From a virus: 30,511 nucleotides of DNA. The stretch spans positions 1-30,511 of the IMG/VR virus record IMGVR_UViG_3300025769_000543; one strand, written 5' to 3'. The notes under the pieces were generated by a model. It was not told where the DNA came from. It did not search any database and was given only the letters and a program-made list of their open reading frames with translations. The position numbers were made by a program, and so were the translations under genes. This document shows, piece after piece, positions 2,919-16,519 of this stretch. Position 1 is the first letter of the stretch, and each line of letters opens with the position of its first letter.

Positions 2919-3299
2919 TCAGTTTGGTGCTTCGTAAGTCAAAGAAGAGATGGTGATCGTGTCGCCTTTACCGATAGAAGTAGACGACAAGATGATGTCA
3001 CCACCGCCACCAGTAGCAGTAACAGTGCCATTGAAGCAAGAATCGCCTGCGCCGTCGAACACAGTAAACTTACTTACAGTTCCTGCATTACAGTCACTGT
3101 CGCCTTTAATAGCAGCAGCAGTAGCGATTCCGCCAGTAGCAGCACCGAAGGCAGTTGCACTAAAAGTTAGAGTAGCGACAGCAGAGTCGTTCACCGAACC
3201 GTCTTGGAACACAATGGATCCTGGTCCGCTGACGTCAATTTTGTCTACTACGAGATTAGCGATGTCATTGCGAACATCAGTTGGATGAGTAACAGCCAT
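2919..3299 (-). CDS. Small beta-rich phage structural protein (126 aa)
   Basis: The start has a strong ribosome binding site, AGGAG 8 bases before the ATG. The protein opens MAVTHPTDVRNDIANLVVD and ends in alternating beta-strand-like segments (SKFTVFDGAG, GTVTATGGGGDIIL, GDTITISSLTYEAP). This looks like a family of roughly 120-residue proteins that I recall near fibre genes in several phages: an N-terminal helix, an Ala/Gly-rich middle, then a beta-sandwich-like C-terminus. The family's function is not established as far as I know, and a minor virion or adaptor component is the best guess. It lies between the 44-aa ORF upstream and the GC hairpin and left fibre gene downstream. The two cysteines (in GDSDCNAG and GDSCFNG) could form a disulphide, but this is speculative. 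Confidence 0.75.
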   Translation of the reverse strand: MAVTHPTDVRNDIANLVVDKIDVSGPGSIVFQDGSVNDSAVATLTFSATAFGAATGGIATAAAIKGDSDCNAGTVSKFTVFDGAGDSCFNGTVTATGGGGDIILSSTSIGKGDTITISSLTYEAPN

Positions 3300-3482: not shown

Positions 3483-3833
3483 TCACTTCGTTACACTTTT
3501 AGAAACCATAAGTTTGCCTTCTAAAACCCTTTCGACTAGAGTGTCTCCACCTTGTTCATATTCTATCTCGATATCATAGACATATCTGCGCCGAGTTAAA
3601 GTTTCTGTTTGAGTATTAGTCAAACTAAATTCTATTATACCATCTGATCTGGGTGATAAGAAACTGACAGAAAAACTAACTGCCTCACTAGAGTCTGCAT
3701 CATAACTTCTATTAAGTTTTCCTCTGGCAGTATAATCTGTCAGATCTCTTTTGGTGCCGTCAGATTCAAGTAGTTTCAATCTCCACTTGGCATCTGCACC
3801 CTGATCTACTTCTAAGTCTTCGTATTGCGCCAT
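3483..3833 (-). CDS. 116-aa beta-rich structural protein
   Basis: The ATG at 3833 is preceded by AGCAGGT (AGGT 9 bases from the ATG) and by an exact late promoter octamer at 3862-3869, so expression as a late gene is likely. The sequence (MAQYEDLEVDQGADAKWRL, then TDYTARGKLNRSYD, then a C-terminal RRRYVYDIEIEY and RVLEGKLMVS) is dominated by alternating polar and hydrophobic residues typical of a beta-sandwich. The layout, an early extended strand, a 'DLTDYTARGKL' strand and a final 'VLEGKLMVS' strand, resembles small beta-domains at the N-terminus of baseplate or fibre adaptor proteins such as BppU. That resemblance is a weak inference. Its leader and first three codons are duplicated upstream (see the repeat at 3825-3988). 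Confidence 0.72.
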   Translation of the reverse strand: MAQYEDLEVDQGADAKWRLKLLESDGTKRDLTDYTARGKLNRSYDADSSEAVSFSVSFLSPRSDGIIEFSLTNTQTETLTRRRYVYDIEIEYEQGGDTLVERVLEGKLMVSKSVTK

Positions 3834-3970: not shown

Positions 3971-6900
3971 TTAGTTGGAGACAATCTTTTTCTTTTTTGA
4001 CAAAATTGAGGAAACACCATAGGAACTAGTAGAATTAAACTCTATTGTACCAGTAACTTTCCTCGATTTAATTATAGTTGTTCTTGGTTTCTGTACCGTG
4101 AAACTTCCAGCAAGAGGAATAAGCGCAGAATTTCTGGTAATCGTTACAGTAGCAACCGTAGAAACATCCTGTGCTTCTAGTATGCCAACAGCATTTATAC
4201 TCCTTCGGGCAACAGAGGTAACAGAAGATTCTCCTGCCTCTAAAACAACAGAAGAAGAGATAACCCTTTCAGCAGCACAAACTACTTGAACATCGACGAC
4301 TGAAAGTGAACCGGAAGCAACGAGAACACGCTCAGAAACACCAGAGACAACTGAAGTTCCAGATATTACAGAATTTCCACCTTGGTCGTCAATTTCTCTT
4401 TCTGCATTACCAGCAACAGATTCTTCACTCTGTATGTTACCAGAGGCAACGAGAACACGCTCGGCGATGCCAGATAAAGTTGCTTCTTGTGACGTTAATG
4501 CGCTAGAAGAAACCAGAACACGTTCGGCAACACCAGAAACGGTTACATTTCCAGAGATAACAGAGTTGCCACCGTTATCGTCTATCTCACGTTCAGCGTT
4601 ACCAGCAACAGACTCTTCGCTCTGGATGTTACCAGAAGCAACTAGGACACGTTCAGAAATACCAGAAACAGTTACATCACCAGAAACGACAGAGTTGCCT
4701 CCTTGGTCGTCAATTTCTCTTTCTGCATTACCTGCTACCGACTCTTCACTCTGAATGTTGCCCGATCCAGTAATAATACGTTCAGATACACCTATTATTA
4801 TCGAGTCAGAAGCAAATATCGAATTACCTTCGTTATCGTCTATCTCGCGTTCTGCATTACCTGCTACTGATTCTTCACTCTGAATATTACCCGAAGCAAC
4901 TAGGACACGTTCAGAAACACCTGTTATGAGAGAATCTGTGCTTACAAGACCGTTACCACCTTGGTCATCAACAACTCTCTCTGCATTACCAGCAACAGAT
5001 TCTTCACTCTGAATGTTTCCAGAAGCAACCAATACACGTTCGGCAATACCGGAAACTAAGGATGAATCAGAAACTAATGTTCCTCTACCAACTTTTGTGA
5101 GTTCTGCTTCGCCAGATACTACTGCCTCTTGAGACGCTACTGCGCCAGAAGCAACAATGGTGCGTTCAGCAACACCCAATATTGTTGAGGCACCAACTGA
5201 CAAGGCATTGCCACCTTGATCATCAATTTCGCGTTCTGCATTACCTGCTACCGACTCTTCGCTTTGGATGTTTCCAGAAGCAACTAGGACACGTTCAGAG
5301 ATACCAGAAACAACTTCTTCTTGAGATGCCAGCGAACCAGAGGCAACCAATATGCGTTCAGCAATACCAGAAACTGTTACGTCGCCCGAAGAAATAGCAT
5401 TACCTTCATTATCGTCTATCTCACGTTCTGCATTACCTGCTACCGACTCTTCGCTTTGGATGTTTCCAGAAGCAACTAGGACACGTTCAGAAATACCAGA
5501 AACAATAGAACTTGTTACTGTTAGAGAATTACCACCTTGGTCATCTATCTCACGTTCTGCAATACCAGAAACCAGAGAAGCAGTAACTGTTAGAGAATTA
5601 CCACCTTGGTCATCTATCTCACGTTCGGCATTACCTGCTACAGACTCTTCACTCTGAATGTTGCCCGATCCAGTAATAGTTCGTTCAGAGACACCTACTA
5701 TTATCGAGTCAGAAGCAAATATCGAATTACCTTCATTATCGTCTATCTCGCGTTCTGCATTACCAGCGACAGATTCTTCGCTTTGGATGTTTCCAGAGGC
5801 GACAAGAACACGCTCGGAAATACCGAAGACGACTTCTTCTTGGGATATTAATACACCAGAGGCGACCAATACACGTTCAGCAACGCCAGAAACAGTTACA
5901 TCACCAGAGATGACAGAGTTGCCTCCTTGGTCATCGATTTCTCTTTCTGCATTACCAGCAACAGACTCTTCGCTCTGGATGTTACCAGAAGCAACTAGGA
6001 CACGTTCAGAGATACCAGAAACAAGGGAGTCAGTAACACCGAGAGAATTACCACCCTGATCGTCTATCTCTCGTTCAGCATTACCAGAAACAACAGAACT
6101 TGTTACTATTAGGGAATTGCCACCTTGGTCGTCGATTTCTCTTTCTGCATTACCAGCGACAGATTCTTCACTCTGTATGTTACCAGAGGCAACGAGAACA
6201 CGCTCAGAAACACCAGAGACAACTGAAGTTCCAGATACTAAGGAATTTCCACCTTGGTCATCAACAACTCTCTCTGCATTACCAGCAACAGATTCTTCGC
6301 CCTGTAAAGAACCTGAAGCAACCAACACACGTTCAGAGACGCCAGAGACAACTGAAGTTCCAGATACTAAGGAATTGCCGCCTTGATCATCAATTTCGCG
6401 TTCTGCGTTACCTGCTACTGATTCTTCACCCTGTAAAGAACCTGAAGCAACCAACACACGTTCAGAGACGCCAGAGACAGTTACATCAGAGGAAACCAAT
6501 GTCCCAGAAGATACCGAAGATCTTTCAGCAATGGCAGAAACAGTGGAAGATCCGGAAACAAGAGAATTACCACCGTTATCGTCTATCTCGCGTTCTGCAT
6601 TACCAGCGACAGATTCTTCACCTTGTAGAGCACCAGAAGCAACCAATACACGTTCAGAAACACCAGAGACAACTGAAGTTCCAGATACTAAGGAATTTCC
6701 ACCTTGGTCATCAATTTCGCGTTCTGCATTACCAGCGACAGATTCTTCACTCTGTATGTTACCAGAAGCAACTAGCACACGCTCGGATACACCAGAGACA
6801 ACTGCTTCTTGAGAAGTTAAAGTGCCAGAAGATACCAAAGACCTTTCAGCAATGGCGGAAACAGTGGAAGATCCGGAAACAAGAGCATTGCCGCCTTGGT

Positions 6901-9358
6901 CGTCCACAACTCTCTCAGCAACACCAGATATGACAGAAACACCAGTTACTAGTGCGTTTCCACCTTGGTCATTGATTTCTCTTTCTGATGTGCCAGCGAC
7001 AACCACTTCCTGAGTTGTTAAAGCACCAGAACTTGTGATTACACGTTCAGCGACACCAGATACAGTTTCTTCTTGAGATACTAATGTTCCAGAAGCAACC
7101 AGAACACGCTCTGCTATACCAGATACGGTTACATCTTGCGATACTAAAACCCCAGAACTTGTTACTATACGTTCAGAGACGCCAGAGATAACAGAAGATT
7201 GAGCAGACAAAGTTCCCGAAGGAACCATAATTCTTTCACCAACGCCATCTACAATTACATTTTCGTCAGACTCAACGCCAGAAACAACAGAAACAATTGA
7301 TCGTTCAGCGTCACCTGCGACTACGACGACACCAACTTCGTCAGCAGTTAGTTCTGCTTCTATTATAATCGTTTTTACAATAGATACAGATATATTTGAA
7401 TTATCTGCTTTAGGTGAACCAGAAGAATTTATGGTCCTTTCAGCAACTCCAGATACTAAACTGTCTGAGGTTACTAACGAGACCGAAGAAGCGATAACAC
7501 GCTCTGCTATACCAGATACGGTTACATCTTGCGATACTAAAACCCCAGAACTTGTGATTACACGTTCAGCGGCACCAGATACGGTTACATCTTGCGATAC
7601 TAAAACCCCAGAACTTGTGATTACACGTTCAGCGGCACCAGATACAGTTTCTTCTTGGGATACTAATGCGCCAGAACTTGTGATTACACGTTCAGCGACA
7701 CCAGATACAGTTTCTTCTTGAGATACTAATGCGCCAGAACTTGTGATTACACGTTCAGCGACACCAGATACGGTTACATTTTGAGACACTAATGTGCCAG
7801 TGCTGTTAATTACTCTTTCTGCAACACCAGATGCTATAGAATCTGTAACAACGAGAGAATTACCGCTTTGGTCGTCTATCTCTCGTTCACCAACGCCAGC
7901 AACGGATTCTTCACTCTGAAGAACACCTGAAGCAACCAACACACGTTCAGAAACACCAGAGACAACTGATGCTTGAGAAGTTAAAGTGCCAGAAGATACC
8001 AAAGACCTTTCAGCAATGGCAGAAACAGTGGAAGATCCGGAAACAAGAGAATTTCCACCTTGGTCATCAACAACTCTCTCTGCATTACCAGCAACAGATT
8101 CTTCACTCTGTATGTTACCAGAAGCAACTAACACACGTTCAGAGACGCCAGAGACAACTGAAGTTCCAGATACTAAGGAATTACCACCTTGATCATCAAT
8201 TTCGCGTTCTGCATTACCAGCAACAGATTCTTCACCTTGTAGAGCACCAGAAGCAACCAACACACGTTCAGAGACGCCAGAGACAGTTACATCAGAGGAA
8301 ACCAATGTTCCAGAACCAGTGATCGTATTTTCAGCGAAACCGGAGACAGTAACATCGGTTGTTTCTAGTGTTCCAGAACCAGTGATTATTCTTTCAGAAA
8401 CGCCAGAGACAGTTACATCAGAGGAAACTAATGTTCCTGAACCAGTAATGATGCGTTCAGAAACACCAGAGACAACTGATGCTTGAGAAGTTAAAGTGCC
8501 AGAAGATACCAAAGACCTTTCAGCAATGGCGGAAACAGTGGAAGATCCGGAAACAAGAGAATTACCACCTTGATCGTCCACTTCACGTTCTGCGTTACCT
8601 GCTACTGATTCTTCACCTTGTAGAGCACCAGAAGCGACCAATACACGTTCAGAAATACCATCTACTGTAGATGGCGAATCAACTAAAGTTCCAGTGCTAT
8701 TAACGGTCCGTTCGGCAACAGCAGATACAGAAGAGGAACCAGAGGCAACAGAGTTGCCTCCTTGATCATCAATTTCTCTCTCACCAATTCCAGCAACAGA
8801 TTCTTCACTTTGTATGTTACCAGAGGCAACGAGTACACGTTCAGAAACACCAGATACAGTTGAAGCACCTGTAGAGAGAGCATTACCACCTTGGTCGTCG
8901 ATCTCTCGTTCTGCGTTACCAGCAACAGATTCTTCGCCTTGAAGAGAACCAGAACCAGTAATAACACGTTCAGAAACGCCAGAAAGGTCGGAAGTTTGAG
9001 ATACTAGAATACCAGTACTGACAATTATTCGTTCAGCAACAGCAGATACAGAAGAGGAACCAGAGGCAACGTTGTTGCCGCCTTGGTCGTCTATCTCGCG
9101 TTCTGCATTACCTGCTACTGATTCTTCACCTTGAAGGGCACCAGAAGCAACGAGAACACGCTCAGAGATACCAGAAACAGAAGAATTTTGAGACTGTAAA
9201 GAGCCAGAAGCAATTGATGTGACCAATAATGTAGCAACACCAGAAACGCTAGAAGATTGCGACTGTAGTTCTACGGTGAGGGTGTTTATGTCACCAATAT
9301 ATCCATCAGCAACATACCCGTCTACTACATATTTGTCTAGGGTGGCAGAAGAGGCCAA
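3971..9358 (-). CDS. 1795-aa tandem-repeat virion/fibre-like protein
   Basis: The start is TTG at 9358: AGGGA lies 6-7 bases upstream, an in-frame TAG sits three codons before it, and no early in-frame ATG exists. About residues 1-35 are unique (MASSATLDKYVVDGYVADGY). From there to about residue 1700 the protein is a run of roughly 80 units of 20, 21 or 23 residues, each opening with a [SA]Gxx[SA]ER-like motif. Common forms are SGVSERVLVASGNIQSEESV, a 23-residue form starting AGNAEREIDDQGGNSL, and SGVAERVITSSGALVSQEET. The last 80 or so residues are different and basic, ending SILSKKKKIVSN. There are no cysteines, no aromatic clusters and no membrane segments in the repeats. Regular beta-strand-sized alternation suggests a long fibrous beta-structure, perhaps a trimeric fibre shaft. 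I do not recognise a named family. It lies after the oxygenase-like gene with a 33-base gap. Confidence 0.8.
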   Translation of the reverse strand: MASSATLDKYVVDGYVADGYIGDINTLTVELQSQSSSVSGVATLLVTSIASGSLQSQNSSVSGISERVLVASGALQGEESVAGNAEREIDDQGGNNVASGSSSVSAVAERIIVSTGILVSQTSDLSGVSERVITGSGSLQGEESVAGNAEREIDDQGGNALSTGASTVSGVSERVLVASGNIQSEESVAGIGEREIDDQGGNSVASGSSSVSAVAERTVNSTGTLVDSPSTVDGISERVLVASGALQGEESVAGNAEREVDDQGGNSLVSGSSTVSAIAERSLVSSGTLTSQASVVSGVSERIITGSGTLVSSDVTVSGVSERIITGSGTLETTDVTVSGFAENTITGSGTLVSSDVTVSGVSERVLVASGALQGEESVAGNAEREIDDQGGNSLVSGTSVVSGVSERVLVASGNIQSEESVAGNAERVVDDQGGNSLVSGSSTVSAIAERSLVSSGTLTSQASVVSGVSERVLVASGVLQSEESVAGVGEREIDDQSGNSLVVTDSIASGVAERVINSTGTLVSQNVTVSGVAERVITSSGALVSQEETVSGVAERVITSSGALVSQEETVSGAAERVITSSGVLVSQDVTVSGAAERVITSSGVLVSQDVTVSGIAERVIASSVSLVTSDSLVSGVAERTINSSGSPKADNSNISVSIVKTIIIEAELTADEVGVVVVAGDAERSIVSVVSGVESDENVIVDGVGERIMVPSGTLSAQSSVISGVSERIVTSSGVLVSQDVTVSGIAERVLVASGTLVSQEETVSGVAERVITSSGALTTQEVVVAGTSEREINDQGGNALVTGVSVISGVAERVVDDQGGNALVSGSSTVSAIAERSLVSSGTLTSQEAVVSGVSERVLVASGNIQSEESVAGNAEREIDDQGGNSLVSGTSVVSGVSERVLVASGALQGEESVAGNAEREIDDNGGNSLVSGSSTVSAIAERSSVSSGTLVSSDVTVSGVSERVLVASGSLQGEESVAGNAEREIDDQGGNSLVSGTSVVSGVSERVLVASGSLQGEESVAGNAERVVDDQGGNSLVSGTSVVSGVSERVLVASGNIQSEESVAGNAEREIDDQGGNSLIVTSSVVSGNAEREIDDQGGNSLGVTDSLVSGISERVLVASGNIQSEESVAGNAEREIDDQGGNSVISGDVTVSGVAERVLVASGVLISQEEVVFGISERVLVASGNIQSEESVAGNAEREIDDNEGNSIFASDSIIVGVSERTITGSGNIQSEESVAGNAEREIDDQGGNSLTVTASLVSGIAEREIDDQGGNSLTVTSSIVSGISERVLVASGNIQSEESVAGNAEREIDDNEGNAISSGDVTVSGIAERILVASGSLASQEEVVSGISERVLVASGNIQSEESVAGNAEREIDDQGGNALSVGASTILGVAERTIVASGAVASQEAVVSGEAELTKVGRGTLVSDSSLVSGIAERVLVASGNIQSEESVAGNAERVVDDQGGNGLVSTDSLITGVSERVLVASGNIQSEESVAGNAEREIDDNEGNSIFASDSIIIGVSERIITGSGNIQSEESVAGNAEREIDDQGGNSVVSGDVTVSGISERVLVASGNIQSEESVAGNAEREIDDNGGNSVISGNVTVSGVAERVLVSSSALTSQEATLSGIAERVLVASGNIQSEESVAGNAEREIDDQGGNSVISGTSVVSGVSERVLVASGSLSVVDVQVVCAAERVISSSVVLEAGESSVTSVARRSINAVGILEAQDVSTVATVTITRNSALIPLAGSFTVQKPRTTIIKSRKVTGTIEFNSTSSYGVSSILSKKKKIVSN
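7511..7825 (-). repeat. 63-nt tandem array (5 units) inside the 1795-aa gene
   Basis: Five 63-base units (21 codons) start at 7511, 7574, 7637, 7700 and 7763. The first two are identical, the third and fourth differ from each other by one base, and the fifth is diverged. They encode successive SGxAERVITSSGxLVSQ units, roughly residues 512-616. Graded identity along the array suggests stepwise expansion by slippage or unequal recombination. Confidence 0.92.
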
Positions 9359-9391: not shown

Positions 9392-10054
9392 TTAGGGGGT
9401 TTCAATTTCCTCGATCAACATGTCGCACATTTTTTTGCCAGTTTCATCCCCGTTGAATATAAACGCGACTGTTGTTCTTAAACAATTAGTTTTGGCGGCA
9501 TGGTACAATACTTTATTGGGTTCGTCATATGGTCCATAGTACCCATACTTACACTGCCAACCTTTTACGTCTGGTATGACTACATGTTCTTTTGTCACTG
9601 GGTCAATATGTTCCCATTGACCGTCGCCAGTTTCTGACCAAGTGAACAACACATTAAACCCAGGAGCATTAGCATTGTTATGCCAACCAATGAAACCGCC
9701 TGGAGGATAAACCGCACTTAAAGCATTATTTCTAGCACCAGACCAAGAACAAAGATCTGATATACACCTTTGCATAGAGGTTATGATTTGAGATTTTTCA
9801 ACGGGGTCGTCGTACATGAACTTGCTATCTGAAGCAATGTCAGCACCCAAAAGCATTTCTGGATATCCATCGTGTTCTGTGCCTTTCCAGACTATGTGTT
9901 TTAGGTATTCTTCGCTGGTCCAATCTTCTGCCTTTTCGTCTCTTGGAATTTGCCTAACCTTTGAGAAGTCGACCCTTTTTACATTCTTTGTAATTTCTTC
10001 CAGAATTTCTAGCAACTCTGGGTTTTTTATCTCTACTGGATTCATACAACTCAT
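9392..10054 (-). CDS. 2-oxoglutarate/Fe(II) oxygenase-like protein (220 aa), HxN variant
   Basis: The segment YPPGGFIGWHNNANAPGFNV (about residues 116-135), then FTWSETGDGQWEHI, and a distal LYHAAKTNCLRTTVAFIF (about 183-200), has the order of a double-stranded beta-helix oxygenase. There is a proximal histidine (H125), a distal histidine (H185), and an arginine eight residues later (R193) placed to hold 2-oxoglutarate. The usual acidic ligand two residues after the first histidine is asparagine (HNN at 125-127). The protein may be inactive, use a different metal geometry, or belong to a phage subfamily with this change. The start at 10054 follows the glycosyltransferase stop by one base (TAATATG), with GGAG 13 bases upstream, so translation is probably coupled. 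Its position between the glycosyltransferase and a giant repeat protein suggests a role in protein modification; DNA modification is an alternative. Confidence 0.68.
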   Translation of the reverse strand: MSCMNPVEIKNPELLEILEEITKNVKRVDFSKVRQIPRDEKAEDWTSEEYLKHIVWKGTEHDGYPEMLLGADIASDSKFMYDDPVEKSQIITSMQRCISDLCSWSGARNNALSAVYPPGGFIGWHNNANAPGFNVLFTWSETGDGQWEHIDPVTKEHVVIPDVKGWQCKYGYYGPYDEPNKVLYHAAKTNCLRTTVAFIFNGDETGKKMCDMLIEEIETP

Positions 10055-10055
10055 A

Positions 10056-10808
10056 TTAAAGTTTTATCTCCGAAATCTTTCTTGTTGCTTTGGAAGATAA
10101 GTGAATAAGAGAAGTTCCTTCGGGCATAGGGTGAGTGTACCTGTTAAGCGATGCCCAATAATTCCACTTTAAATCTTCTTCAAAGATGGCAACCTTTAGA
10201 TCTTTATACTTAGGGTCTTTTTCAACCAACCAAAATAAACTAAACTGGTCCCAACATGCTAACTCTCTGGGATAGTTTTCAATATCCCAAGTAATCCCGT
10301 CCTCTTTGGTTGGCCACCATTCATTCGCCCATTGTTTGACGTATAGTTCGTACCAATCTTTCATAAATTCTATTACAAAATCAGTTTTCCTATAAAGGCA
10401 AACAGCACCGCAAAGAGTAAACGTTCCTCCAGGAAATTCGGTGTCCATAAAAATATGCCACCTATCTCTTGGAAGTCCTGTGAACATAACATCATTATCG
10501 CCAAGTTCGTCAAAAACGTTAGCAATATTTTCACTGATGCAAGTCATATCGGCATCGATATAAAAAGTTATATCAAATGGAGTTTGCGACATACCCCAAA
10601 GTTTTGCGCGATAATGATTGTCGCAGAATATTAAATGATCTGCTTCATCTGCTCTTGAGTCTATAAATCTTTCTTCTGTGACAAAGCAGATTTGCGCTTC
10701 GGGGTAATAATCTTTTATTTCTGAGATTAAATTGGTTGCCCAAGAATAATAGATTTCATCGTTGGAAGCGACGATCAAATAACCTTTAGTCAGACCCTGT
10801 TGCTTCAT
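10056..10808 (-). CDS. GT-A fold glycosyltransferase (250 aa)
   Basis: Sequence order fits nucleotide-diphospho-sugar transferases of the GT-A (glycogenin/GT8-like) type. It has an N-terminal Rossmann-like strand (GYLIVASNDEIYYSWATNLI), then RAKLWGMSQTPFDITFYIDADM with the metal/sugar-nucleotide DxD motif as DAD at residues 85-87. FTLCGAVCLYRKTDFV (about 130-144) is the acceptor-side strand, followed by CWDQFSLFWLV (185-195) and a late IHLSSK (about 235-240) with a histidine typical of metal or diphosphate contact. Length is normal for a single catalytic domain, and there is no signal peptide or membrane anchor, so it should act in the cytoplasm. The start overlaps the end of the upstream coiled-coil gene by 23 bases. 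The acceptor is unknown: adjacent Tyr/Ser-rich fibres are the nearest candidates, and DNA bases or a host glycan are alternatives. Confidence 0.82.
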   Translation of the reverse strand: MKQQGLTKGYLIVASNDEIYYSWATNLISEIKDYYPEAQICFVTEERFIDSRADEADHLIFCDNHYRAKLWGMSQTPFDITFYIDADMTCISENIANVFDELGDNDVMFTGLPRDRWHIFMDTEFPGGTFTLCGAVCLYRKTDFVIEFMKDWYELYVKQWANEWWPTKEDGITWDIENYPRELACWDQFSLFWLVEKDPKYKDLKVAIFEEDLKWNYWASLNRYTHPMPEGTSLIHLSSKATRKISEIKL

Positions 10809-11268
10809 TTAAAGAAAATCCTATGCCAAGTTCTTCCATCATGATCAATTGTGCAAAGAGATTTAATTCCACAATATTTTTAGATCTGCGCATTTTGCTC
10901 TTGAGTTCTTTATTTTTGGTATTTTTAATTTCGTCGATCTCAAGCATTTTAATTTTGGCGTCGAAAAGTCGCTCAAGTTCTCTTGCTTGCTCCTCTGCCT
11001 TCTTTCGATGCTGATCTTCTTCCTTTTCCCTTGCCTTGCGTTCTTTTCGCTCAGCAGTACTGGCATCTATTTGTTCTTCGCCAACCTGCTCAAGAAGTTC
11101 CTCAAAGTCTGGATTGATATTTCCATCAACATCATATTTACGAACTGTGAGAACTTGAGAAATTTCTCTTCCTGCTGCGTCCGTAATCACCAAGATCGCT
11201 TCAGCACGATCTTTCTCTTCATTATGCCAAAAAGCATTGTCTAACCATTTTCTACTACCGTGCGACAT
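10786..11268 (-). CDS. Coiled-coil protein of unknown function (160 aa)
   Basis: I chose the ATG at 11268 (MSHGSRKWLDNAFW) over one four codons upstream because GGAG lies 6 bases before it and nothing comparable precedes the upstream ATG. Residues about 1-65 look like a small folded domain (AEAILVITDAAGREISQVLT, then a KYDVDGNINPDF stretch). Residues about 70-110 are a highly charged Glu/Lys/Arg heptad-like region, surely a helix and probably a coiled coil. A final helical part ends ELGIGFSLNEATGSD. It sits between the 952-aa fibre gene and the glycosyltransferase gene, which it overlaps. A fibre-assembly chaperone or connector would fit the position and shape, but no family is recognised with confidence. 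Confidence 0.7.
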   Translation of the reverse strand: MSHGSRKWLDNAFWHNEEKDRAEAILVITDAAGREISQVLTVRKYDVDGNINPDFEELLEQVGEEQIDASTAERKERKAREKEEDQHRKKAEEQARELERLFDAKIKMLEIDEIKNTKNKELKSKMRRSKNIVELNLFAQLIMMEELGIGFSLNEATGSD

Positions 11269-11315
11269 TGTAATCTCCATTAGTTGCTAACATAATTAAT
11301 GTCATTTGTATATAT

Positions 11316-14174
11316 CTAGGTTTCAGACACCCTACAATAGAGGGTGTACGTTTCTATCGTCTCGGTCACTGCAACAAGAGTCTGTCCAGTAAACTGAGAA
11401 GAATATGTATCAGAGTAGTTTCTAGAACCAGCATAATCACCAGAATAGTTTCTGGTACCATCGAATTGTTGCGCGACAGATCTGTTTCCTGCATATTGAG
11501 CAGAATAATTCCTTGAACCACCGTACTGTCCTACTACTGATGCATAGTTTCTAGAACCAGCATACGCACCAGAATAATTTCTAGAACCACTATAGGTGCC
11601 AGAGTAATATCTGCCACCAGCATACTCTCCTGCTACTGATGCATAGTTTCTAGAACCACCATATTGACCAGTTACTGATGCATAGTTTCTAGAACCAGCA
11701 TACGCGCCAGAATAATTTCTAGTGCCAACGAAGTCTTGTGCGACAACTCTTGTCCCATCATATTGATCAGAATAATTTCTAGAACCGCTGAATTGCTGAG
11801 AAAGGGTTCGGACCCCAACATATTGGTCAGAGTAGTTTCTGGAACCAGTATAAGCAGCAGAGTAGTTTCTGGAACCGCCATACTGTCCGACTACTGATGC
11901 GTAGTTTCTGGATCCAGCAAATTGTTGTTCAACTACTCTTTGTCCGCCAAATTGTATACCAACTTGTCTGACTCCAGTATAGGTGTCAGAGTAGTTTCTT
12001 GAACCAGAATAAACAGCAGCATAGTTTCTGGAACCATCGAAGTTACCAGGAACAACTCCAAGGAAGTTTATATCTCTAGTTCCAAGGAAGTTTATATCTC
12101 TAGTTCCTGTAAATTGTTGTTCTACTTGGTTAGTAACACCGAAGTTCGCTGGGACGTTAACAGGGATTTGCCTAACTCCAGCAAAAGTGTCTACTCTCAC
12201 AGCAGCATTTGCAGTAAATTGAATGTCGCCAGAAGCAAACGGGAATTGAATTATTCGGGGACCGACATAAAAAGCATTACCAGCAAAGGTTCCAGGAGAA
12301 CCAAAGGTGCCTGGATTACTACCATCATACTTTCTTACTCCTGCATAACTTGCGACGTTTACGGTTGGTTCTTTTGCAGGTCCACCGAAAAAGGTTACGC
12401 TAAAGTTTGCGTTATATCCTCTGGTGAACGATCTCGTGCCGACAAAATTTCTTACTCCAGCATAGTTTGCAGGTCCAGTAAATTGTATTCCTTGAATATT
12501 TCTATTTCCAGTAAATGACCTAACACCAGCATATTGAGCACTATAAGATACTGAGAAATTACCAGGAGTAGGTAACTGCCCTGAGCGTACACCAGCATAA
12601 TTTACAGTAACATCTCTTTGTCCTCCGAACTGAATGCTTCTTACTCCGAGGAAGTTGATACTACGAACTCCAAGGAAGTTTATATCTCTAGTTCCAGCAT
12701 AGGTTCCAGCATAGTTTCTAGAACCACCGTACTGTCCTACTACTGATGCATAGTTTCTAGAACCATCGAAAGGTTGAGAAACCGCTCTTACTCCAGCGAA
12801 TTGTTGTTCAACTGTTCTTTGTCCTACATATTGGTCAGAGTAGTTTCTGGAACCAGCATAATCACCAGAATAGTTTCTGGAACCGCCATACTGTCCGACT
12901 ACTGATGCGTAGTTTCTGGATCCAGCAAATTGTTGTTCAACTACTCTGTTTCCTCCATATTGGTCAGAATAGTTTCTAGAACCTGCGAATTGCTGAGCAA
13001 CCACTCTTTCGCCAGCATATGTTGCTGGCCCATAGTTTCTGGAACCGCCATATTCTCCAACTACTGATGCATAGTTCCTAGAACCAGCATACGCACCAGA
13101 ATAATTTCTAGAACCAGAATAACCGATTACTGCTAACCAAAGTCTAACACCGGCATACTCTCCTACTACTGATGCATAGTTTCTAGAACCACCATATTGA
13201 ATTGGTGCTGATGCATAGTTTCTAGAACCAGCATATGCACCAGAATAAGTTCTAGAACCAGCGAATTGTTGTGCGACAACTCTTGACCCAGCATACTGTG
13301 CTGGACCATAGTTTCTTGAACCAGCATAAGTATCAGAATAGTTTCTAGACCCTGAGAAGTTTCCAGTATACTGTTGGTCTGATAACGTATTTCTTGTGTC
13401 AAGTGCTGTACCGCGAGCAACCCAAGTACCAGTTTCTCCGTTACCAGCAGGAGTTTGAGAAGAGGGCAGCAAAAGATAATCACCAACGCCAGAATGTTTT
13501 CTAGCATAAAGTGCTGATTGTCGAACAGAAATCTTTTGATCCGAGTCAGTAAACTCTTGAACTGCCATCGGAGAAGTAGATTTAATTTCTATAATATTAT
13601 ATGTTGGTGAAGAAGGTTCAACCGCTGTTTCCCTTCTCCAAATGCTATAGGTATTTGCTGTTCCGTTTGTTAATGTATCAGAAAATACATCAGAATCCCA
13701 TTTTTTCCAGTCTGCGCTTGGTGCAGATGTCGCAACTCTAAAAGACAATCCTGGATATTCGTTTCCGTGTAGTTCTTCTGCAACCCTTGTTGACCAACGA
13801 AGGAAAGCAACGTTGCTCATTTGATGAAGGTTTCCAGAACTATCTGCGGCGAGAGGAAGGTCGTTGTATGGAATAGCAGCAGAGTCGTCTAACTGATATA
13901 TTGTAGTTGTGGTAGTACCAGTAGACAAAGCACTAGCAGGATGAGTTCCTATTGCTTCGTTGTAAAACGTATCGGAGAAACTACCAATGCTGGTAGAATT
14001 GGTTGCATTAGCAGCAACAGAACCATTGTATCGACTTGATTTATTTGGAAAAGACTCTACAAGTTTTATACCTGCTTGGTATCCATACCATTCTTCTGAA
14101 GCAGCAGAAATCCCCTGAAAATCCCCAGAGTCATTTTTCAGAGCCAGAGGTATGGATTTGAAAAAGGCAGACAT
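11316..14174 (-). CDS. 952-aa fibre-like protein with YxGSRNY repeats (paralog of the 780-aa gene)
   Basis: Residues about 1-270 form a non-repetitive head domain (SIPLALK at the start, then SIGSFSDTFYNEAIGTHPAS, later TGTWVARGTALDTR). From there to near the end, the chain is 10-residue units such as YAGSRNYSGA and 13-residue units such as YAGSRNYASVVGQ, with variants ending VVAQQ or VVEQQ. Irregular islands of INFLGVRS and Pro-rich sequence lie in the middle. The C-terminus, ETIETYTLYCRVSET, is shared with the 780-aa protein. Tyr, Ser, Arg, Asn and Gly dominate, and almost every unit holds one arginine. This suggests a long fibre or adhesin with surface-exposed Tyr/Arg ladders. The start lies two bases after the stop of the 780-aa gene without a clear ribosome binding site, so it is probably translated by coupling. 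I know of no assigned function for this repeat. Confidence 0.78.
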   Translation of the reverse strand: MSAFFKSIPLALKNDSGDFQGISAASEEWYGYQAGIKLVESFPNKSSRYNGSVAANATNSTSIGSFSDTFYNEAIGTHPASALSTGTTTTTIYQLDDSAAIPYNDLPLAADSSGNLHQMSNVAFLRWSTRVAEELHGNEYPGLSFRVATSAPSADWKKWDSDVFSDTLTNGTANTYSIWRRETAVEPSSPTYNIIEIKSTSPMAVQEFTDSDQKISVRQSALYARKHSGVGDYLLLPSSQTPAGNGETGTWVARGTALDTRNTLSDQQYTGNFSGSRNYSDTYAGSRNYGPAQYAGSRVVAQQFAGSRTYSGAYAGSRNYASAPIQYGGSRNYASVVGEYAGVRLWLAVIGYSGSRNYSGAYAGSRNYASVVGEYGGSRNYGPATYAGERVVAQQFAGSRNYSDQYGGNRVVEQQFAGSRNYASVVGQYGGSRNYSGDYAGSRNYSDQYVGQRTVEQQFAGVRAVSQPFDGSRNYASVVGQYGGSRNYAGTYAGTRDINFLGVRSINFLGVRSIQFGGQRDVTVNYAGVRSGQLPTPGNFSVSYSAQYAGVRSFTGNRNIQGIQFTGPANYAGVRNFVGTRSFTRGYNANFSVTFFGGPAKEPTVNVASYAGVRKYDGSNPGTFGSPGTFAGNAFYVGPRIIQFPFASGDIQFTANAAVRVDTFAGVRQIPVNVPANFGVTNQVEQQFTGTRDINFLGTRDINFLGVVPGNFDGSRNYAAVYSGSRNYSDTYTGVRQVGIQFGGQRVVEQQFAGSRNYASVVGQYGGSRNYSAAYTGSRNYSDQYVGVRTLSQQFSGSRNYSDQYDGTRVVAQDFVGTRNYSGAYAGSRNYASVTGQYGGSRNYASVAGEYAGGRYYSGTYSGSRNYSGAYAGSRNYASVVGQYGGSRNYSAQYAGNRSVAQQFDGTRNYSGDYAGSRNYSDTYSSQFTGQTLVAVTETIETYTLYCRVSET
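11863..12947 (-). repeat. 77-nt exact direct repeat inside the 952-aa gene (11863-11939 and 12871-12947)
   Basis: Two identical 77-base blocks lie 1008 bases apart (336 codons), both in frame. They encode the end of one SRNY unit, a full YGGSRNYASVVGQ-type unit and the start of FAGSRVVEQQ. Exact identity over this length exceeds what conserved protein sequence alone requires. Confidence 0.9.
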
Positions 14175-14678
14175 GATTATGTTTCAGAAACTCGGCAATA
14201 TAGTGTATATGTATGTATAGTCTCTGTTGCGGAGATTATTGTTTCTCCATCAAAGTTGCTGGAAAAACTGCCTGTATATTGTCCTGTAAATTGAGTAGAA
14301 TAAGTTCCAGAATACTGTGCAGTGAAGACTTTCGCCCTAAACCCACCATACTGTCCAGCATAGTTACCAGCATACTGACTGGGGTTTGATGCATAGTTTC
14401 TGGAACCAGCATACTGCCCGACTACTGATGCATAGTTTCTAGAACCACTGTAATCAGCAGAGTAGTTTCTACTTCCAACGTAATTTCCACTGTAGTTTCT
14501 TGAACCACCATAAGCAGCAGAGTAGTTTCTTGAACCACCATAGTTGGCACTGAAAGGTCTGGTTCCAGCAAAGTCTTGACTTTTTGCTCGAACTCCAGAA
14601 TATTCCCCAACTACTGATGCATAGTTTCTAGAACCACCATATTGAATTGGTGCTGATGCATAGTTTCTAGAACCAGCA
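13165..14678 (-). repeat. 69-nt exact repeat shared by the two paralogous fibre genes (13165-13233 and 14610-14678)
   Basis: The same 69 bases occur once in the 952-aa gene and once in the 780-aa gene. They encode a unit ending in RNYASAPIQ, followed by YGGSRNYASVVGE. Elsewhere the two genes differ at many silent sites, even where the protein is the same. Confidence 0.9.
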
Positions 14679-16519
14679 AAGGAACCAGGAATCAAACGTA
14701 CACCTTCAAATTGAGCGTCCTCCAATCTATTTCCCCCAAACGGGAATGGTCCGCCAGTAAACTGAATATCGCCAGTTACAACTTGAAACTCTCGGGCACC
14801 ACCAAAAAGTTGTCCTGGTTGATTAACTCGCACGCCATCAAAACTTAGTGCAGGGGGTTGCTCGGGTGAGATGGGTCGGTACAGTCCGGTGAACTGAATC
14901 GGAGATGATACACGATTGCCGCTATATGTTCCTGGGACAACGTCACTAGAATATTTTACTGATCCCCTATAGTTAGTGTTTCCTGGGACCGGTTCTCGTT
15001 CCTGGGCGGGACCGGCTGGGACAGGGGGGTTTGTACTGCTGTAGGTTGCATAACCAACATTCTCGACAGTTCTTGACCCACTAAAATTTCCAGGTATTTG
15101 TCTGGTTCCAGTATATCCTGTTTGACGTTGACCGCTGAATATAACATAAGAGGTTACAAATTGTCGCTCAAATTGACTATATGCTCCAAGGGCAACCGTT
15201 CTTGTTCCAACAAAGTTTCTTTGTCCATTAAAATTACCTGGATTGAGAACTTGTGCAGGGCGTTGAATGGGAACTGGTCTGGTTCCTGCATACTCACCAG
15301 AATAGTTTCTAGACCCAGTATAAGCAGCAGAGTAGTTTCTTGAACCACCATAGTTGGCAGAAAATTGTCTCACTCCGGCAAAACTTTGGGGTATGTCTCT
15401 TACTCCGCTATATTCTCCAACTACTGATGCATAGTTCCTAGAACCAGCATATTGTCCAACCACTGATGCATAGTTTCTAGAACCACCATACTGTGCTAGA
15501 CCATAGTTTCTAGAACCAGCATATTGTCCAACCACTGATGCATAGTTTCTTGATCCAGCATAATTCGCAGAATAAGTCCTAGAACCAGAATAAATGTTTA
15601 CTCTAGAACCAGAATATTGATCAGCAAAGTTTGCATAAGAAACACCAGTGTACTGTCCAGTAAAATTACCAGTATACTGTCCTGTAAACTGAGATGTAAA
15701 AGTTCCGAGATATTGCTGAATTTGTGTTTGGTGACGGGTGTCTAATGCAACACCACGAGCAACCCAAGTGCCAGTGTATCCTAGATCTGTTGGAGATCCA
15801 TCAGAATCAGACAATAAAAGATAGTCACCCAATCCAGAGTTTTGTTCAGCATGGCGCATAGCAAAATATGCGGAACGAACAGCAGTAGTTCCTTGCATTT
15901 CTTGAATATGATGCGCGTCAGAATCCTTTAACTGTAATGTATAATAGGTTGGTGGGAAATAGACGCTGGTAGTAGATCTCTTTCTATATAGGTTATAATC
16001 TGTAGATCCGCTTGCCACAGTATCTTGAAATAAAACAGACTTGTAAACTTCATATTCGCCGCCAGGAATACTTGAATTTATTCTAAAGCAACCAGGTTCT
16101 TCGTTTGTTAAAGCAGTCTCAAGAAGTCGATACCCCCAACGATAAAATGAATCTGAATCCATTTCATAAATGTCGCCACTGGAATCAGCAGCAACTGTTC
16201 GAGACCATTCAGCAAAAGCATCTACAGAATCACCTTTGTTCTGGTAGAGAGTAGTGGTAGTAGAACCAATTGACAGAGAACTTCCAGGGTGGGTTCCAAC
16301 TGGTTCGTTGTAGAAAGTATCGGTGTAAGAACCTATGGAAGAATTATTTGGGTCTGTCGATAGAGCACCATAGTATGCTGAATCGCCCGAAGGAAATTCT
16401 GATATTAATACGCTGGCACCGTTCTGCGCGTAATAATTTTCTTGCGAAGAAGGAATGGCGTCTACAGCACCGTTCCCCAATGCAGAAAGCGTCAGCGGTA
16501 TAGATTTTTCTAACGACAT
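14177..16519 (-). CDS. 780-aa fibre-like protein with YxGSRNY repeats
   Basis: The start is preceded by AAGG about 7 bases upstream. The head domain (about residues 1-265) has the same landmarks as the 952-aa paralog: SIPLTLS at the start, SIGSYTDTFYNEPVGTHPGS, then GTWVARGVALDTRHQ. The repeat region begins with QFTGQYTGNFTGQYTG and continues with YAGSRNYASVVGQ and YGGSRNYSAA units. It is interrupted in the middle (about residues 400-600) by a Pro-rich, less regular section (VPAGPAQEREPVPGN, then RPISPEQPPALSFDG). The C-terminus ETIHTYTLYCRVSET matches the paralog. Keeping head and tail while the repeat number changes (780 against 952 aa) suggests that the ends mediate attachment and trimer closure and the repeats set length. 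It follows the 216-aa gene after 13 bases. Confidence 0.78.
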   Translation of the reverse strand: MSLEKSIPLTLSALGNGAVDAIPSSQENYYAQNGASVLISEFPSGDSAYYGALSTDPNNSSIGSYTDTFYNEPVGTHPGSSLSIGSTTTTLYQNKGDSVDAFAEWSRTVAADSSGDIYEMDSDSFYRWGYRLLETALTNEEPGCFRINSSIPGGEYEVYKSVLFQDTVASGSTDYNLYRKRSTTSVYFPPTYYTLQLKDSDAHHIQEMQGTTAVRSAYFAMRHAEQNSGLGDYLLLSDSDGSPTDLGYTGTWVARGVALDTRHQTQIQQYLGTFTSQFTGQYTGNFTGQYTGVSYANFADQYSGSRVNIYSGSRTYSANYAGSRNYASVVGQYAGSRNYGLAQYGGSRNYASVVGQYAGSRNYASVVGEYSGVRDIPQSFAGVRQFSANYGGSRNYSAAYTGSRNYSGEYAGTRPVPIQRPAQVLNPGNFNGQRNFVGTRTVALGAYSQFERQFVTSYVIFSGQRQTGYTGTRQIPGNFSGSRTVENVGYATYSSTNPPVPAGPAQEREPVPGNTNYRGSVKYSSDVVPGTYSGNRVSSPIQFTGLYRPISPEQPPALSFDGVRVNQPGQLFGGAREFQVVTGDIQFTGGPFPFGGNRLEDAQFEGVRLIPGSFAGSRNYASAPIQYGGSRNYASVVGEYSGVRAKSQDFAGTRPFSANYGGSRNYSAAYGGSRNYSGNYVGSRNYSADYSGSRNYASVVGQYAGSRNYASNPSQYAGNYAGQYGGFRAKVFTAQYSGTYSTQFTGQYTGSFSSNFDGETIISATETIHTYTLYCRVSET

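Follow-up and report, generated by a model that had tools for sequence, protein, structure and literature searches.

The window analyzed here is the whole 30.5-kb stretch (30,511 nt) of the viral record IMGVR_UViG_3300025769_000543, which comes from a T4-like phage; the late genes are encoded by the minus strand. Embedded among its fibre genes are three tightly packed genes, encoding a coiled-coil-like protein (cc), a putative glycosyltransferase (GT) and a 2-oxoglutarate (2OG) oxygenase-like protein (OXY). In the direction of transcription the order is baseplate genes, fibre A, fibre B, cc, GT, OXY, fibre C and a small protein of the phrog_1084/phrog_3304 type, and the successive gaps from fibre A on (2, 35, −23, 1, 33 and 137 bases) are consistent with a single operon. 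An earlier annotation made from the letters alone, hereafter the sequence-only reading, had described three packed genes between fibres. These are indeed minus-strand open reading frames (ORFs): cc and GT overlap by 23 bases, GT and OXY lie 1 base apart, fibre B ends 35 bases ahead of cc, and fibre C starts 33 bases past OXY. The cc ORF is also real, with its start at 11280 and not at 11268, which is an internal Met. The three genes and the fibres upstream of them are as follows.

14177-16519, minus strand: fibre A, 780 aa, a tandem counterpart of fibre B from the same family (assigned from ORF and composition).
11316-14174, minus strand: fibre B, 952 aa, with a conserved N-domain, a YxGSRNY repeat region and a conserved C-end, TYTLYCRVSET; its family is found in 88 distinct loci.
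10786-11280, minus strand: cc, coiled-coil-like, 164 aa, with a conserved W..NaFW N terminus, recognized by its constant position ahead of GT.
10056-10808, minus strand: GT, a putative glycogenin-like glycosyltransferase of GT-A fold, 250 aa, with D85xD87, D187-Q188, N216 and H236 (AlphaFold2 model and alignment).
9392-10054, minus strand: OXY, a 2OG-oxygenase-like protein of P4H/PHD2 fold, 220 aa, with H125-x-N127...H185...R193-x-T195 (AlphaFold2 model and motif alignment).

The same genes recur together in related phages, a family of T4-like aquatic viruses. Analysis from the GT side used 159 loci with room for neighbors, composed of the loci fetched at that stage and the window; this set was drawn from the top scores among 494 GT loci and is partly redundant, its GTs forming 66 clusters at 85% identity. 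In all 159, cc lies directly upstream of GT and OXY lies downstream on the same strand, within 150 bases in 141 loci and beyond an extra YxGSRNY-type fibre in the other 18. Since this set was top-scoring, the most divergent GT branches were sampled separately, and there cc-GT-OXY is kept in 25 of 25 complete loci, with a fibre upstream wherever the contig reaches. The search in the opposite direction, from the fibre N-domain, found all three genes in 51 of 75 loci and the order fibre-cc-GT-OXY in each of these 51; the remaining 24 loci end within the fibre array, at most 461 bases past it or, in L301, just after the start of the query fibre. Among 50,697 phage records the fibre N-domain, GT and OXY each match Phage C48C1 (Kyanoviridae) only, in the same order. 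The linkage is thus obligate in the complete loci, and an order repeated in every one of them indicates that the arrangement is not due to chance. The coupling, seen from GT and from the fibre alike, strongly supports the view of the sequence-only reading that the cassette acts on the neighboring fibre, and no cassette was seen in a phage without repeat fibres, [YF]xG being enriched in 86 of 88 upstream fibres. In each of 15 long phage records there is one full-length GT of the cassette family and between one and three OXY copies, the cassette copy being present in all.

The fibres upstream of cc in the 88 distinct loci share a conserved N-domain (like SIPLKIK..GDLQ..T..EENY) and usually a conserved C-end (like IETYTLYVRTA, ..ETYTLYVR). 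Their middle is a tetrapeptide-type repeat, [Y/F]-x-[G/R]-[N/D/T], of which the YxGSRNY of the window is one variant. [YF]xG is enriched in 86 of the 88 fibres, with a median of 8.4 per 100 aa compared with 2.0 after shuffling, and around it the repeat unit has an aromatic residue every four residues, G/R at +2 and N/D/T at +3. Aromatic residues show an autocorrelation of about three times expectation at lags of 4, 8, 12 and 16, and at the other lags it falls below 0.5; the YAGSRNY repeats of the window have spacings of about 4, 6 and 10. GSRNY occurs 13 and 25 times in the two upstream window fibres, versus 0.00 and 0.01 times after shuffling. Tandem copies of this fibre family are also found in other phages, and in the window fibre B is most likely the target of the cassette.

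The composition of the repeats narrows the candidate acceptors. Across the repeat regions Thr makes up 14%, Tyr 12% and Asn 8%; Lys (0.5%) and Pro (1.4%) are scarce, and Cys is almost absent. The scarcity of Lys and Pro makes hydroxylysine or hydroxyproline of the collagen type implausible as the main product and leaves Thr/Ser, Asn/Asp and Tyr as candidates; the collagen analogy drawn in the sequence-only reading therefore fails in its details. Tyrosine, which that reading took up from glycogenin, is unlikely as a universal acceptor, since the aromatic position is taken by Tyr and by Phe with similar frequency (3231 versus 3075), which suggests that the ring has a structural role. The residue right after the repeat Gly is N or D in 57%. 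The description of the adjacent fibres as rich in Tyr, Ser, Asn and Asp stands for Tyr in the repeat regions of the two upstream fibres (9.9% and 10.2%), but not for fibre C, with 0.2% Tyr, nor for Asp, which is low in fibre A (1.8%) and fibre B (3.2%).

Pfam and PHROG profiles gave no significant match to the window copies of cc, GT or OXY. Because these single-protein scans were silent, families and structure models were built to identify GT and OXY, using alignments of 67 rows for GT and 86 for OXY, with the C48C1 rows left out of both. Sequence-profile searches of PDB chains returned chance matches only. The AlphaFold2 model of GT (pLDDT 95.1) is closest to glycogenin, which fills all 27 top rows (3t7n: 191 residues aligned, Z 16.9, rmsd 3.1); GlyE, Gat1, UGGT, ABO and LgtC enzymes come next. 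The modeled fold is thus a GT-A fold of the GT8/glycogenin type, in agreement with the glycogenin-type enzyme proposed from the sequence. D85, D87, D187-Q188 and N216 are invariant in the 67-row alignment and H236 is present in at least 90%, such that GT has both the DxD motif and the later His metal ligand, the latter matched by motif order and not by residue-level superposition. The GT8 Pfam profile does not match the family; weak matches were found to PF03407 in 2 of 19 GT members (best 3.3e-7) and to PF00535 in 4 of 19.

The OXY model (pLDDT 96.2) contains the double-stranded β-helix of the P4H/PHD2 group and aligns best with PHD2 and other prolyl hydroxylases (3oui; Z 10.4, rmsd 3.6, 147 residues). 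The site H125-x-N127...H185...R193-x-T195 is found in 113 of 113 representative sequences, with Ser at the last position in two, and R193-x-T/S195, which follows the distal His in all of them, would by its sequence be a basic residue of the 2OG-binding RxS/T type. The HxD/E...H facial triad is absent, as Asn occupies the position of the carboxylate ligand in every sequence. The protein is therefore 2OG oxygenase-like in its fold, as had been proposed, but not canonical in its site. OXY relatives were found in viral contigs and in one of 84,980 prokaryote genomes; this single source is a contig from a metagenome-assembled genome, with the same fibre neighborhood, and is hence probably phage.

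The 113 OXY sequences span three paralogue clades, with both His, the Asn, D162 and RxT kept in all three. Two clades lie away from fibres, one beside tail-tube/uvsY genes and one beside dnaB, each well supported (100/99), and presumably the oxygenase fold is reused in the same phages for other substrates. The second clade (L002:18267-18920; L313-L317) is located between a tail-tube-like gene and uvsY, among head genes, and retains the HNN motif; a protein of the head or tail may be its target. The third clade (L303:6131-6805; L304-L312), with the motif GWHTN, is located downstream of dnaB or near thyX-like genes, and in C48C1 and one other record its gene directly precedes a NifU-like gene.

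For cc, comparison with Pfam, PHROG and PDB profiles gave no match of note. A test for kinship with the protein annotated in C48C1 as tail assembly chaperone was also negative. A fibre-specific chaperone or scaffold is the probable role of this protein.

On balance, we consider it rather probable that cc, GT and OXY constitute a dedicated maturation or post-translational modification cassette for the fibre encoded just upstream. In such a cassette cc would probably bind or chaperone the nascent fibre, and GT would use a nucleotide-sugar donor to glycosylate the repeats at many positions, with Thr/Ser, hydroxylated Asn/Asp, or Tyr as the most likely acceptors. OXY would hydroxylate repeat residues, preparing or tuning the site, or act as a substrate-binding partner of GT. 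Glycosylation of the fibre is likely, and the extra glycosyltransferases beside divergent cassettes, described below, lend it further support. The reaction of OXY and the residue it modifies are speculative; our favored guess, by analogy, would be β-hydroxylation of Asn/Asp, because of the 57% N/D after the repeat Gly and the parallel with human AspH (aspartate/asparagine β-hydroxylase), a guess weakened by the Asn/Asp-poor fibres of some branches.

Several points weigh against a modification cassette. The obligate linkage is also compatible with three assembly factors without catalysis. Two OXY paralogue clades sit away from any fibre, so the OXY fold itself is not fibre-specific, and HxN at an iron site usually denotes a damaged or atypical oxygenase. 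Moreover, no one acceptor residue is high in all fibres, Asn/Asp reaching only about 4 to 7% in those of some branches.

In its fullest form the modification cassette would be a phage pathway of hydroxylation followed by glycosylation, a prokaryotic equivalent of those for collagen and Skp1, acting at many fibre sites with an oxygenase that has a new His-Asn-His iron site; we put this forward tentatively. It is also conceivable, if somewhat unlikely, that glycosylation alone takes place, with GT glycosylating the fibre and OXY serving as an adaptor or chaperone, a dead oxygenase fold that binds fibre, 2OG or sugar. In favor of this reading are the Asn found in place of the carboxylate ligand in all 113 OXY sequences, the catalytic-type residues kept in GT, and the appearance of additional glycosyltransferases, but not of additional fibre-linked oxygenases. 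However, the retention of both His, Asn, D162 and RxT across three OXY clades goes beyond the needs of a scaffold, and in human AspH an iron site of two His and a water, held by D721, with no carboxylate ligand, is fully active (PMC13168262). AspH resembles OXY in this lack of a carboxylate ligand and acts on protein; the ligand site holds water in AspH and Asn in OXY, and OXY has no AspH-family Pfam match.

A purely structural role, with all three proteins (cc, GT-like and OXY-like) no longer active as enzymes and serving as chaperones of the fibre or as minor components of the virion, appears improbable to us. Many phage fibres need dedicated chaperones, and the fixed linkage to one fibre family would suit such a role; yet DxD, DQ, N216 and other GT-A residues are invariant in 67 GT sequences, and the extra genes found beside the cassette again encode glycosyltransferases. 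Base-J-like DNA hypermodification, with OXY hydroxylating a base and GT glucosylating it, is very unlikely. The succession of a 2OG enzyme and a GT does match base-J logic, and the weak Foldseek matches of the OXY model include AlkB structures; but the pair is tied in every complete locus to one fibre gene and not to DNA metabolism, a linkage that upholds the earlier preference for a protein target, and OXY aligns best to protein hydroxylases.

The candidate modification cassette shares features with several known systems. Like glycogenin (GT8) and Gat1 of the Skp1 pathway, a pathway that also includes a prolyl-hydroxylase-type enzyme, GT shows the GT-A fold along its entire length (Z 16.9 and 14.9) and has the DxD metal motif; it differs in its identity of ~12-15%, its lack of a GT8 Pfam match and its location in a phage late operon. 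With the P4H/PHD2 group, including chlorella-virus vCPH, OXY shares the double-stranded β-helix (Z 9.4 to 10.4), two His and the Arg, whereas it has HxN instead of HxD and ~10% identity, and the fibre repeats are Pro-poor. Collagen lysyl hydroxylases with GT activity, including a Mimivirus relative, are fused enzymes that act on Lys of collagen repeats. There, as proposed here, a hydroxylase and a GT work on one repetitive fibrous protein, but the repeats of the window family contain little Lys or Pro and the enzymes are separate. In mycobacteriophages (Che8 and relatives), phage-encoded GTs decorate virion proteins and capsids carry glycans (as cited in PMC11256854).

Phage fibres set host range, and their post-translational modification is almost unexplored. 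We know of no oxygenase partner or fibre-locked three-gene cassette in mycobacteriophage virion glycosylation, nor, to our knowledge, of any phage system that ties a GT together with an oxygenase-fold protein to a single fibre. Searches of the open-access literature found no paper on a fibre-cc-GT-OXY cassette. The fibre family and its putative modifying enzymes are inseparable in the complete metagenomic loci examined, yet they occur in 1 of 50,697 catalogued phage records, which renders them invisible to culture-based work. If active, the cassette would provide a phage-borne pair of protein hydroxylase and GT, a 2OG fold whose iron site is of a new type, and a simple repeat as substrate for laboratory tests of both enzymes.

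In divergent cassettes one or two extra phrog_1962 glycosyltransferases follow OXY, clear in L047 (10031-11394), L185, L188 and L192 and weaker in L067, L074 and L082. In the latter three loci one phrog_1962 GT lies on the opposite strand. Nucleotide-sugar epimerases are present in 14 of 17 of these phage records and UDP-sugar dehydrogenase-type genes in 12 of 17, with 10 above cut-off. Such genes are common in T4-like marine phages and therefore count little as support, though epimerase/dehydrogenase pairs are a possible source of donor supply. In C48C1 (OQ984149) a nucleotide-sugar epimerase adjoins a UDP-glucose dehydrogenase at 35326-37226, and most long relatives have like pairs. No psbA-type gene was found in the 15 long records, which thus give no support for a cyanobacterial host.

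Downstream of OXY the window contains two further features of the fibre region.

3971-9358, minus strand: fibre C, 1795 aa, with SGxxER repeats and a TTG start, an accessory fibre (from ORF and relatives).
3483-3833, minus strand: small protein matching phrog_1084 (E 1.7e-23) and phrog_3304 (E 1.6e-16), L-shaped tail fibre assembly (PHROG).

Fibre C is almost without aromatics, Lys and Pro and is found in close relatives only. In most related phages the phrog_1084/3304-type gene comes immediately after OXY, and the link between the cassette and the SGxxER fibre that the sequence-only reading had proposed was accordingly rejected. Beyond the small assembly-type gene the window encodes a 126-aa protein (MAVTHPTDVRN..., 2919-3299), which has the same position in several relatives with an SGxxER fibre.
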